From contig JACDOI010000016.1 in assembly GCA_017656145.1 (NCBI GenBank), forward strand, positions 1 through 47,156: a stretch of DNA of 47,156 nt, read 5' to 3'. This document shows positions 3,994 through 36,044 of this stretch, piece after piece. The position numbers and the translations under genes are program-made. This DNA is from Bacillota bacterium (GTDB taxonomy: Bacteria > Bacillota > Limnochordia > Limnochordales > ZCTH02-B6). The notes below the pieces were generated by a model. The model saw only the letters and a program-made list of their open reading frames with translations. It did not search any database and was not told where the DNA came from. How positions within the stretch are numbered: position 1 is the first letter of the stretch; each line of letters starts with the position of its first letter.

Positions 3994-5772
3994 GTGCCCT
4001 ATGACGGATTGTTCGCGGCCGCCGCCCGGGCTGAGCTTCACAAGGAGCTGTCCGGCGCGCGCATTCACAAAATTCATCAGCCCGACGGCCATACAATAGT
4101 CCTCCAGTGCCGCCAGCCTGGTCGCATGCATCAGCTGCTTATCAGCTGCGATCCGCAGCATCCCCGGGCCTATTTAACCGGATCGGCCCCGCCCCATCCG
4201 GTGCGGCCGCCGGCCTTTTGCATGTTGCTGCGCAAGCACCTTGAGCCGGCCCGGATCGCGGCGGTGGAACAGGCCGGTTTGGACCGGGTGCTGCGCATCG
4301 TCTGTGAGGCGGTGCAAGGACCGCAGGCCCGGGTGCGGCGGGTACTGGTGGCCGAGCTGACCGGCCGCCACGGCAACATCGTCCTGGTCGACGGCGAGTC
4401 CGGGCGGGTGCTGGACGCGATCCGTCGCCGTTCTGCGGGAGAGATGCGGGGAGCCCTGGCGCCGGGAGAGCCGTACGAACCCCCGCCGGCCAAACCGAAA
4501 GCAGATCCCCGGAGCGCGTCGCCTCAGGACATTCAGCTTGCGCTCTTGCGGGCGCCGGCTGCTTGGCCGGTGGAACGGGCGCTGATGGAATTGTACGACG
4601 GGCTCGGGCCCTTCGCCGCCCGGGAGGTGGCAGCCCGGGCCGGGGTCCCGGTCCGGGCGCAGCTGGATGCTTTGTCCGCTGACGACTTAGACCAGATCTC
4701 CCGGGCTCTGGCGAGCCTGGGAGACGCGGTGCGGTCGGAGCGGTTTTCGCCGGTTGTTCTCCGGGACGAAGCCGGCCGGGCGCAGGAATTCTGGGCTTTC
4801 GAGCCGTTTGGGGCCCAAGAGGCCACAATGGAGCGGTGCACCGGTCCAAGCGAGGCTGCCGACGCGTACTACCGGGAACGGCTTGACAGGCTTGCCCGGG
4901 AACAGTGGCAAAAGCGGCTTCAACGGGTGGTGTCCGACGCCCGGGAGCGGCTTGTGCGCAAGGCGGCCGCCCTCGAACAGGACATGGCCCAGGCCCAGCG
5001 GGCCGGCGAGTTCCGGCTGTACGGCGAGCTGCTTCTAGCCAACTTGCACCGGATCGAACGGGGATCCCAGGCTACGGTGCCCAACTACCACGCGGGAGGC
5101 GCCCCGGTGACGATACCGCTGGATCCGGCCCTCAGCGTGGCGGAGAACGCCCACCGGTACTACAAGCGATACGCCAAGGCCCGAACGGCCAAGGCCAAGC
5201 TGGAATCCCAGCTGGCTGCCGTTCGAGCGGACATCGCGTATCTGGACCAGACCGCGGTGCATCTTGAGATGGCGGAAGGGCGCGAGGATTTGCAGGCGAT
5301 CGAAGCGGAGCTCATCGCCGCGGGCTTTTTGTCTCCGGCGTCCGAGGAACATGCGAAACGGCGGCCTTCGGAAGCCCCGGTCTCCCTCGGTCCCCTGGAG
5401 GCCCGCACCAGCGACGGATCCCGGGTGCTCATCGGCCGCAACAACCGCCAAAACGACCGGCTAACCCTCAAGGAGGCCCGGCCCGACGACATCTGGCTGC
5501 ACGTCAAGGACGCTCCCGGCGCGCATGTCATCCTCAAGCCCGCCTCCCCCGAGCCGTCGCCGGAAGCCCTTCTGGAAGCCGCCCGGGCTGCCGCCTACTT
5601 CAGCAAAGCCCGAGGCGCCAGCAACGTGCCCGTCGACTGGACCCGGGCCCGTTATGTCCGCAAGCCCCGCGGGGCCCGGCCGGGAATGGTGATCTACGAT
5701 CATCATCGAACGTTGTACGTCACGCCCGATGAAGCGGCCGTTCAGGCGTGGCTGGCGATGTCCCGCCGGTAG
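3994..5772 (+). CDS. rqcH: Ribosome-associated quality control protein RqcH (NFACT family)
   Basis: About 592 residues. The N-terminus MPYDGLFAAAARAELHKEL followed by GARIHKIHQPDGH matches RqcH/FbpA (NFACT-N); a long charged helical middle spans roughly residues 270-430; the C-terminal NFACT-R domain has SRVLIGRNNRQNDRLT and DIWLHVKDAPGAHVIL. RqcH binds stalled 50S subunits and recruits tRNA-Ala to add alanine tails to the nascent chain. The GTG at 3994 is chosen because GGGAGG lies 10 bases upstream and the protein then begins as the family does; a GTG at 3961 would add 11 non-conserved residues. The 3' end overlaps convergent purD by 31 bases. Confidence 0.93.
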   Translation: MPYDGLFAAAARAELHKELSGARIHKIHQPDGHTIVLQCRQPGRMHQLLISCDPQHPRAYLTGSAPPHPVRPPAFCMLLRKHLEPARIAAVEQAGLDRVLRIVCEAVQGPQARVRRVLVAELTGRHGNIVLVDGESGRVLDAIRRRSAGEMRGALAPGEPYEPPPAKPKADPRSASPQDIQLALLRAPAAWPVERALMELYDGLGPFAAREVAARAGVPVRAQLDALSADDLDQISRALASLGDAVRSERFSPVVLRDEAGRAQEFWAFEPFGAQEATMERCTGPSEAADAYYRERLDRLAREQWQKRLQRVVSDARERLVRKAAALEQDMAQAQRAGEFRLYGELLLANLHRIERGSQATVPNYHAGGAPVTIPLDPALSVAENAHRYYKRYAKARTAKAKLESQLAAVRADIAYLDQTAVHLEMAEGREDLQAIEAELIAAGFLSPASEEHAKRRPSEAPVSLGPLEARTSDGSRVLIGRNNRQNDRLTLKEARPDDIWLHVKDAPGAHVILKPASPEPSPEALLEAARAAAYFSKARGASNVPVDWTRARYVRKPRGARPGMVIYDHHRTLYVTPDEAAVQAWLAMSRR

Positions 5773-7001
5773 CGCATGCCCGCAAACCGGATGCGGGCAG
5801 CGGCCCGGTACGCCTGGTCCCGGGCCGCTGCCAGTGTTTCGCCTAAGGCGGTGACCGCCAGCACCCGGCCGCCCGCCGTCACCAGCTGTCCGGCTTCCTC
5901 CCGAGTACCGGAATGAAAGATCAGGGCTCCTTCCGCCTGAGCCTCCTTGAGGCCGCGGATGGGCCGGCCGGTGGCCGCAGCACCAGGATAGCCTTCTGAG
6001 GCAAGCACCACGGTCACCGCGGCCTCCGGCCGCCACTTCAAGGTGACCTCATCGAGCCTCCTACGGGCCAGTGCCTCCAATGCCTCCAGCAAGTCGCTCT
6101 CAAGGCGCGGCAAGATCGACTGGGCCTCGGGATCGCCCATGCGGCAGTTGAACTCCACCACCTTGGGCCCATCGGGGGTGAGCATGAGCCCCGCGTACAA
6201 GATTCCTGTGTACGGCCGGCCTTCTTGCTCAAGCGCCCGGACGACAGGACGGAGAATTTCATTCTCGATGCGATCCAAACAGTCCGGGCCTACGTCGGGT
6301 ACCGGGGAAAACGCCCCCATGCCGCCTGTATTCGGGCCTTGGTCGCCGTCTTCAAGCCGCTTATGGTCCCGGGCCGGCGCCATCGGGAGCACCGTCCGGC
6401 CGTCGGTCAATGCCAGGACGCTGACTTCCCGGCCTGGCAAAAATTCCTCAACAACGATCCGCCGGCCCGCTTCCCCGAACACCCTTTCCCCCATGAGAGC
6501 CCGGACGGCCTCTTCTGCTTCTTCCACCCGGCGGGCCACCGTGACCCCCTTGCCGCCCGCCAGGCCGTCGGCTTTGATGACCACCGGCATGTCTCGGGAG
6601 CGAACATATGCCAGAGCTTCGCCCGGATCGGTAAAGACCTCGTACTCGGCTGTAGGAATGCCCCAACGGCGCATCAGTTCTTTGGCGAACACCTTGCTGC
6701 CTTCGATCTCCGCCGCTTTCCGGGAAGGCCCGACCAGCGGCAAGCCCCGGGCTGCGAACTCGTCGGCGATGCCGGTCACAAGCGGCGCCTCAGGGCCCAC
6801 GACCGTTAGGTCGATGCGGTTCGCCAAAGCCCATTCGGCCAGCTCGGACCCGCCGCCCAGGCCTATCCGGACGCACCGGGCCACCTGAGCGATCCCTGGG
6901 TTTCCCGGAGCGCAGTACAGCCCGGTCAACCTCGGGCTTTTGGCCAGGGCCCAGGCCAGGGCATGTTCCCGCCCGCCTTGCCCGACGATCAGCACCCGCA
7001 A
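5742..7001 (-). CDS. purD: Phosphoribosylamine-glycine ligase (GAR synthetase)
   Basis: A 419-residue ATP-grasp enzyme of purine synthesis step 2, joining glycine to phosphoribosylamine. It begins MRVLIVGQGGREHALAWAL, with GPEAPLVTGIADEF, the ATP-grasp core VIKADGLAGGKGV, DHKRLEDGDQGPNTGGMGAFSP and VEFNCRMGDPEAQ, all diagnostic for PurD. The start is TTG at 6999-7001, preceded by GGGAGGGG 6 bases upstream. It is the last gene of the pur cluster, separated from purH by 151 bases that are almost entirely long G tracts on the coding strand. Its 3' end overlaps the end of convergent rqcH by 31 bases, leaving no room for a conventional terminator. Confidence 0.96.
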   Translation of the reverse strand: MRVLIVGQGGREHALAWALAKSPRLTGLYCAPGNPGIAQVARCVRIGLGGGSELAEWALANRIDLTVVGPEAPLVTGIADEFAARGLPLVGPSRKAAEIEGSKVFAKELMRRWGIPTAEYEVFTDPGEALAYVRSRDMPVVIKADGLAGGKGVTVARRVEEAEEAVRALMGERVFGEAGRRIVVEEFLPGREVSVLALTDGRTVLPMAPARDHKRLEDGDQGPNTGGMGAFSPVPDVGPDCLDRIENEILRPVVRALEQEGRPYTGILYAGLMLTPDGPKVVEFNCRMGDPEAQSILPRLESDLLEALEALARRRLDEVTLKWRPEAAVTVVLASEGYPGAAATGRPIRGLKEAQAEGALIFHSGTREEAGQLVTAGGRVLAVTALGETLAAARDQAYRAAARIRFAGMRYRRDIASHA

Positions 7002-7020
7002 ATCGATCCCCTCCCGGTCC

Positions 7021-7116
7021 CGGGGCCCCCCCGGCCCCCCCCCGCCCCCCCCCCCCCCACCCCCCCAAAAGCGCCCCCCCCCGGGCCCGGGGCGGGCGGG
7101 CCCACGGCGGGGGGGC
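7021..7116. repeat. Extreme homopolymeric C/G tracts between purH and purD
   Basis: On the plus strand C runs of 7 (7026-7032), 9 (7035-7043), 14 (7045-7058), 7 (7060-7066) and 9 (7074-7082) are followed by G-rich sequence with a G run of 7 at 7109-7115. On the coding (minus) strand these are consecutive G tracts lying between the purH stop and the purD ribosome site. They could form G-quadruplexes or stable G:C stems in the pur mRNA, or may reflect an unreliable assembly. The sequence explains why purD is not coupled directly to purH. Confidence 0.85.
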
Positions 7117-7152: not shown

Positions 7153-8733
7153 TCAGTGGCGAAAATGGCGCCGCCCGGTGAACACCATCGCGATGCCTGC
7201 CCGGTCGGCGGCTGCGATAGAATCCGCATCCCTGCGGGAGCCGCCCGGTTGCACGATGGCGGTGATTCCGGATTGGGCCGCGGCCTCCACGACGTCGGGA
7301 AACGGGAAAAACGCCTCAGAGGCCAGGACTGAACCCCGGGCCCGCTCCCCGGCCTGCTCGATGGCCAGCCGCGCCGCGGTTATCCGGTTCATCTGTCCCG
7401 CTCCGATTCCCACGGTCGCCAGGTCCCGGGCGAGGACGATGGCGTTGGACTTGACGTGCTTGACCACCTTCCAGGCGAAGGACAGCTGTTCCCATTCTTC
7501 CGGCGACGGCGCCCGGCGAGTCACCACCCGCTCCCGCGCCGGCTCAAGACCCTCGGGTCGCCAGTCCGCCTCCTGCACGAGCCATCCTCCGCCCACCCGT
7601 TTCCAGTCCGCGTACGGCGCCGGCGGTCGCCAGTCCGGTATCCGAAGCAGGCGGATATTCGGCTTGGCTGTCAGTATATCAAGGGCTTCCGGTTCGAAGC
7701 CGGGGGCGAGGACGACTTCGAGGAACAAGTCGGCCATGGATCGGGCCGCCTCAGCGTCAACGGGCCGGTTGGCCGCGACGATGCCGCCGAAAATCGATAC
7801 CGGATCGCTATCCCGGGCCTTGCGGAACGCCTCGGCCACCGTCGCGCCCACCGCGAGCCCGCACGGATTCGCGTGCTTCACCGCCGCCACCGCTGGCGGG
7901 TCGAACTCCCGGACCATCTCCAGGGCCGCGTGGGCGTCATGAATATTATTGAAAGAAAGTTCTTTGCCGTGCAGCTGCTCGGCGGAGGCGACGGTGCCCG
8001 GAGGCACCGGCGATTCGGTGTACAATGCAGCCTTCTGGTGCGGGTTTTCGCCGTAGCGCAGCGTCCGGGACCGGACCAGCACAAGGGCCGACCGCTCCGG
8101 CCACGCCCCGAGCCCTTCGACCGTCTCCTCTTCCGCCAGGCCCGCCAAGTACTGGGCGATGCTTGCGTCGTACGCGGCGGTGTGGGCAAACGCCTCCCTC
8201 GCCAGCTCGAGGCGAAGGCGGGCGCCCCCGTCGGGTCCCCCGCCGCTGGACAAGGCTTCGAGCACCTGGCGGTACCGGTCCGGATTGACGATCACCCACA
8301 CGCCGGGATGGTTCTTGGCGGCGGCCCGCACCATGGCCGGGCCGCCGATGTCGATCTGTTCCAGCGCCTCCTCCACGGTGCACTCCGGCCGGGCAACGGT
8401 CTGGGAAAACGGGTACAGATTGACCGCCACGACGTCAAACGGCGCCGCACCTATCCGGTTGAGCGCCTCCATATGTTCCGGCCGGTCCCGCCGGGCCAAA
8501 ATGCCGGCGTGGACCATCGGATGGAGCGTCTTGACCCGTCCGTCGAGAATTTCCGGAAAGCCGGTGACCTCCGAGACCGGGACGACCGGAACGTGGGGCT
8601 TGAGCGCCGCCAGCGTCCCCCCGGTCGACACGATGGTATAGCCCAAAGCCGCCAGGCCCCGGGCGAAATCGACCACACCTCGCTTGTCCGAAACGCTGAT
8701 CAGGGCTCGCTTGCCGCCCATGCCGCCGTTCAT
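7153..8733 (-). CDS. purH: Bifunctional AICAR transformylase / IMP cyclohydrolase
   Basis: About 526 residues, normal for PurH. The N-terminal IMP cyclohydrolase (MGS-like) domain has KRALISVSDKRGVVDFA and STGGT; the C-terminal transformylase has LRYGENPHQKAALY, the catalytic-site KHANPCG, SNAIVLARD and FFPFPD. It performs the last two steps to IMP. The start is the ATG at 8731-8733, with AAGGAGGAG just upstream, rather than a longer in-frame reading toward purN. It lies 68 bases after purN and is followed by the G-tract spacer before purD. Confidence 0.96.
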   Translation of the reverse strand: MNGGMGGKRALISVSDKRGVVDFARGLAALGYTIVSTGGTLAALKPHVPVVPVSEVTGFPEILDGRVKTLHPMVHAGILARRDRPEHMEALNRIGAAPFDVVAVNLYPFSQTVARPECTVEEALEQIDIGGPAMVRAAAKNHPGVWVIVNPDRYRQVLEALSSGGGPDGGARLRLELAREAFAHTAAYDASIAQYLAGLAEEETVEGLGAWPERSALVLVRSRTLRYGENPHQKAALYTESPVPPGTVASAEQLHGKELSFNNIHDAHAALEMVREFDPPAVAAVKHANPCGLAVGATVAEAFRKARDSDPVSIFGGIVAANRPVDAEAARSMADLFLEVVLAPGFEPEALDILTAKPNIRLLRIPDWRPPAPYADWKRVGGGWLVQEADWRPEGLEPARERVVTRRAPSPEEWEQLSFAWKVVKHVKSNAIVLARDLATVGIGAGQMNRITAARLAIEQAGERARGSVLASEAFFPFPDVVEAAAQSGITAIVQPGGSRRDADSIAAADRAGIAMVFTGRRHFRH

Positions 8734-35782: not shown

Positions 35783-35811
35783 AAAAAAACCCGTCCCGGA
35801 AAGGGACGGGT
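35783..35811 (-). terminator. T-box terminator
   Basis: RNA stem ACCCGUCCC/GGGACGGGU with a 5-base loop followed by seven U residues, directly after the T-box sequence and 20 bases before the ileS start region. Confidence 0.93.
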
Positions 35812-36044
35812 CAATTCCCGCGGTACCACCCTTGTTGAACCCCGGTCTACCCCGGGCGTTCCACTCGTTGGCCGATAACGGCGGCTTCCGGCCCAGTCTA
35901 CTCGCCGAAACGCTTCGCGCCCCGGCTTTCGGTGGGCAGCTCCGGGGTGATCTTCAGCGGGCGGCAGCCGCCGGGCTTCCACCGGCCCCCGGCTCGCTTT
36001 GGCGGCCGTCTCCGCCTACTGTCCCCTTCATCGCCTTTGTCGAT
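35783..36044 (-). promoter_or_regulatory. T-box riboswitch controlling ileS (AUC specifier)
   Basis: The leader RNA contains the Stem I element GAUGAAGGGGACAGUAGGC (about 36015-36033), the distal GUGGAAGCC region, a specifier AUC at 36-strand positions 35949-35951, GAGUGGAACGC and the T-box AAGGGUGGUACCGCGGG (about 35817-35833) that pairs with the tRNA acceptor end. A terminator follows. All elements are in canonical order and the AUC codon matches ileS. The 5' limit is approximate. Confidence 0.95.

Follow-up and report, generated by a model that had tools for sequence, protein, structure and literature searches.

On Illumina instruments, sequence-specific errors have been described after GGC motifs and inverted repeats and attributed to dephasing (PMC3622629, citing an earlier study; the comparison here extends to the accessible part of that paper). 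The errors found in the present genome resemble them in affecting GC-rich DNA prone to fold back, in running along the reading direction and in calling the lagging neighbour; however, the accessible part of PMC3622629 concerns error rates at single sites, whereas here tens of consensus bases are overwritten. As to the cause, the available portion of PMC4787001 favours the polymerase together with the nucleotide over folding and names motifs ending in GG. A coverage dip at the CCNGCC motif on Illumina MiSeq, with no excess of predicted secondary structure, is described in the accessible text of PMC4872057; there, as here, short-read sequencing is harmed by a GC-rich motif, but the damage reported in that text is a loss of coverage, while in our case the consensus is rewritten. 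Since these two sources, in the parts considered, do not favour folding, the case for folding as the cause is weakened. A further relevant system is the two-colour Illumina T-to-G artefact, a low-rate, read-level error in which T>G and A>C calls are over-represented according to the available part of PMC13218037. Among 422 errors counted at contig ends of the present genome, 70 were A>C and 61 T>G, the latter being the third commonest class, which agrees with that account; unlike it, G>C leads here (140 of 422, the commonest error) and lag accounts for many of the calls. Finally, RNA and DNA G-quadruplex regulators share with our locus the closely spaced G runs, as the record is written, but among the relatives compared the runs studied here are not conserved, and the second copy of the DNA at sister tracts elsewhere in the genome mostly disagrees with them.

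The locus lies between purH and purD in a window of 47,156 bases, the whole stretch of DNA that was analysed, which is contig C16 of a draft genome of 2,571,400 bases in 116 contigs. Its features are as follows.

5742 to 7001, minus strand: purD, with a TTG start at 7001
7020 to 7116, minus strand: smeared stretch of G/C homopolymer runs, probably miscalls covering a GC-rich spacer of about equal length, delimited from the record and by analogy with overlapping contig ends
7026 to 7082, minus strand: five long runs of G on the coding strand, in the part of the smeared stretch nearer purD, from the run listing
7026 to 7032, plus strand: C run of 7 (G run on the coding minus strand)
7035 to 7043, plus strand: C run of 9 (G run on the coding minus strand)
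7045 to 7058, plus strand: C run of 14 (G run on the coding minus strand)
7060 to 7066, plus strand: C run of 7 (G run on the coding minus strand)
7074 to 7082, plus strand: C run of 9 (G run on the coding minus strand)
7109 to 7115, plus strand: G run of 7 (C on the coding strand)
7153 to 8733, minus strand: purH, an ordinary frame through to its stop, with the start placed by eye at the first Met of P0001

The original prediction singled out G runs of 9, 7, 14, 9 and 7 on the coding strand of the purH-purD spacer, and these are present in the record, spanning 57 bases. It also described them as far beyond anything else in the window, which is borne out by a longest G/C run of 7 elsewhere. 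The 97 bases from 7020 to 7116 are 94% G+C, against at most 81% in all other 97-mers (n = 9370, taken every 5 bases), and identical neighbouring bases occur at 72% of steps, compared with a maximum of 45% and a mean of 29% elsewhere in the window. A first-order Markov estimate for the entire window gives 0.015 runs of at least 14; the same rough model predicts about 3 runs of at least 9, of which none was found outside the tract, so a lone run of 9 would carry little weight, and it is the clustering that is remarkable. The tract is confined to the spacer, which extends from the purH stop at 7153 to the purD start at 7001, and it leaves purH, purD and the apparent purD ribosome site (GGAGGGG, plausible by eye) all intact. 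The purH gene is single copy in the genome and 76-77% identical to that of the family relative G002.

The placement of similar runs across the genome points to their origin. A pattern search of all contigs returned 74 runs of at least 9 G, 71 of them outside the window, and for 67 of the 74 a contig end is no more than 150 bases away, 38 ends being involved. By chance about 2% would be expected there, given that 1.8% of the genome falls within 200 bases of one of its 232 contig ends, and because the search pattern misses runs flush with a contig end, the count at ends is, if anything, too low. Clustering at assembly breaks, as expected of an artefact, is thus seen genome-wide, with the window tract itself among the exceptions. 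Seven of the 74 runs lie away from ends: three in the window, two in similar clusters (C9:21844 and C15:43051) and two in C5 and C8, which fall in apparent coding frames by eye and look real. The clusters on C9 (L019) and C15 (L026) are likewise smeared stretches internal to contigs and intergenic by eye, and the one on C9 includes a run of 26 G.

Contig ends were also read directly. A G/C run of at least 7 occurred in the last 170 bases of 48 of the 116 ends read (from a total of 232), a fraction that is biased as a rate because 38 of these ends were selected for carrying a tract; in one subset of the ends read, 7 of 60 had such a run. Further in, the count fell to 1 of 116 at 330-500 bases and 0 of 116 at 530-700 bases inside the contig. 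In some terminal sequences A and T are doubled or tripled too, e.g. at the end of C42, and some contig-end sequences begin mid-gene by eye (C31, C65). Two other draft genomes, both of relatives, show the same preference. Runs of at least 12 G were matched in 14 of 72 genomes of the class, with the highest number in the present genome (26), followed by G001 (12) and G008 (7), and they lay within 200 bases of a contig end in 10 of 12 cases in G001 and in all 7 in G008.

Overlapping contig ends supply a second reading of the same DNA. A blastn search among the 116 ends gave 33 pairs, 24 of them with end-to-end overlap geometry, of which 16 were kept and 8 were dropped before counting as their longest identical core was shorter than 14 bases or missed one of the four bases (C11e/C55e, C13e/C4s, C20s/C52s, C23e/C2e, C31e/C76e, C52e/C73s, C55s/C56s and C75s/C78e). 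Among the dropped pairs, tract was matched to tract in C20s/C52s and C55s/C56s, a CRISPR-like repeat was common to both members of C23e/C2e, and C11e/C55e and C75s/C78e look like true overlaps that behave alike. The sixteen kept pairs, with their miscalled bases, look like neighbours left unjoined by the assembler.

The kept overlaps comprise 98-196 columns each. The two copies match in a core, and outward from it each contig diverges from its neighbour, whose inner side is mostly ordinary. Over 2189 columns there were 436 differences, of which just 14 were gap columns; length is kept and letters are changed. When the longest identical block was used to divide inner from outer (our choice) and sides of at least 15 bases were compared, the longest G/C run was longer in the outer copy on 16 of 23 sides, equal on 7 and shorter on none, and runs of at least 9 occurred on 8 outer sides versus 1 inner side. 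Where the outer run reached 7 or more (10 sides), the inner copy had a maximum of 5 or less on 8, of 7 in C1s/C62s and of 11 in C39e/C49e. The dropped pairs C11e/C55e and C75s/C78e, which are further examples of a smeared against an ordinary copy, had inner-side runs of 7 and 8. Two alternative tallies, a looser one with the border at the overlap midpoint and one with other filters (runs of at least 9 on 12 outer versus 4 inner of 31 sides), went in the same direction with more noise. Mean G+C rose from 0.717 in inner to 0.796 in outer copies, and with the inner copy taken as true, A/T was changed to G/C at 173 of 441 positions and G/C to A/T at 38 of 1106. Individual pairs illustrate the pattern: a hairpin-like stretch in C75 appears on C56 as a G run followed by a C run (C56s/C75e), C20s/C6s contains a palindrome up to which each contig is ordinary and beyond which it is smeared, and in C30s/C34e the inner copy is an open frame by eye while the other carries a run of ten C.

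The errors carry a directional signature, which was assessed on these sister contig ends only. The miscalled letter equalled the preceding true base in the reading direction in 207 of 350 informative errors, compared with 169 on average under permutation (sd 6; none of 2000 permutations as high), and the base two before in 192 of 347 (mean 162; 0 of 2000). No such excess was found for the following base (144 of 301, with 140 on average under permutation; as high in 604 of 2000) or the base two after (149 of 305; mean 144; 422 of 2000). An excess of the preceding without the following base indicates strand lag. The overlapped stretches had a G+C of 0.708 versus 0.657 in inner stretches, and they folded more strongly than the latter and also than 79 controls of G+C at least 0.68, matched on G+C by that cut-off alone (-0.240 versus -0.217 kcal/mol per base for these controls, p 0.0065); the case for a role of folding in the smear is weak. 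The platform was presumably sequencing by synthesis of the Illumina type.

We consider it very probable that the G tracts of the spacer are a product of sequencing and assembly, a reading that overlaps in part with two of the alternatives below, those of a genuine core and of a poly-G tail. The original prediction had already offered a basecalling or assembly error as one possibility, and this is strongly supported by the clustering at contig ends and by ordinary and smeared copies of the same DNA. The window tract is known from a single reading inside a contig, so the verdict on it is by analogy: it has the same make-up as the contig-end smears but is internal to its contig and without a second reading in the genome, and it would share their cause. 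A search of the genome for a second copy of the spacer returned, apart from the window, a single weak match, to another smeared tract on C51. As a mechanism, we propose that reads entering GC-rich, structure-prone stretches may fall out of synchrony, such that the signal of lagging strands would make each base resemble its predecessor and A or T would be called as G or C. The consensus would then hold G or C runs in place of the true bases at nearly unchanged length. Assembly would usually break at such a smear, leaving most tracts at contig ends, and the smear in the purH-purD spacer may have been bridged by chance, which would leave the tract internal to the contig. The real spacer is probably GC-rich, without such runs and, since smearing barely alters length in the overlaps, roughly 150 bases long; perhaps it forms a hairpin. 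Its actual sequence is not recoverable from the record. Clustered G/C homopolymers in draft genomes, chiefly near contig ends, should therefore not be taken for quadruplexes, phase-variable tracts or repeats without recourse to the reads, and overlapping contig ends offer a way of testing such tracts with the assembly alone.

Signal loss rather than lag could produce similar runs if a two-colour poly-G read tail, in which lost signal is called G, had been joined into the contig. The terminus of C65, which in the reading direction consists of 17 uninterrupted G, is what such a tail would look like, and the rank of T to G among the errors fits as well. However, miscalls to C in the outward direction outnumber those to G (234 versus 126 of 422), and the kept length and the lagging base agree better with phasing than with pure signal loss. 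We regard a poly-G tail as unlikely to be the explanation by itself, and phasing and signal loss may both contribute.

It is very unlikely that a genuine long G/C homopolymer core exists at the tract and was only exaggerated by the smear. Runs of 15-27 G/C, one or two per genome and mostly solitary, do occur inside long contigs of four relatives (G005, G006, G007 and G011), where they may be genuine or errors of another kind, but the tract in the window resembles the smeared contig ends in consisting of clustered, interrupted runs, and the inner copies of the overlaps had a run of at least 9 on a single side among the 23 compared. Most of the relatives' runs are isolated in ordinary sequence, and as proof of real tracts they were counted neither way. 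The longest of them, a run of 27 G at 535-561 of locus L189 in G006, sits within a CRISPR-like array of CTCCCCACGCGTGTGGGGGTGGACCG repeats in a one-contig genome, and could itself be a related kind of error.

The regulatory reading can be set against the spacers of relatives. Relatives with a PurH match numbered 36, and the loci of 29 of them (L160-L188) were scanned, 30 places including the window's own; a motif scan found purD adjoining purH in 11 of the 29 (G002 and ten others) and did not find it there in 18. A further 80 PurH loci, 46-57% identical, were kept, judged too distant for spacer comparison and left unused. The purH-purD spacers of the 11 relatives, with gaps of 25-91 bases, contained no G/C run longer than 5, and G002, the closest relative in which the two genes adjoin, has a 61-base gap and no tract. 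The spacer comparison recommended at the outset thus gave a uniform result in 11 genomes, all from outside the genus. The idea that real G tracts form quadruplexes in the purH-purD mRNA and tune purD expression draws on more than four closely spaced runs of at least 3 G on the coding strand, as the record is written, and on the undamaged state of purH, of purD and of the sequence that looks like the ribosome site of purD. Against it stand the absence of conservation in all 11 spacers and the second readings, which contradict like tracts at contig ends on 8 of the 10 sides whose outer run reached 7 or more; we consider it extremely unlikely. The slippage proposed along with it is likewise unsupported, given the same spacers. 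As a single DNA strand, the spacer folds no better than its shuffles (z -0.18), which says little because the DNA folding energy model used is not known to include quadruplexes. A genuine species-specific, quadruplex-forming G-rich insertion of about 97 bases that separates purH and purD expression is likewise extremely unlikely.

Two further features were met. Across the window, Rfam at gathering scores matched a single family, the T-box leader RF00230, at 35799-36040 on the minus strand (99.9 bits, gathering score 93), far from the tract, where there was no match. At the ends of C2 (L211) and C23 (L225) of genome G000, a repeat unit like GGCTCTACCTATAAGGGATTGAAAC occurs in opposite directions, and this looks like a CRISPR array severed by the contig ends.
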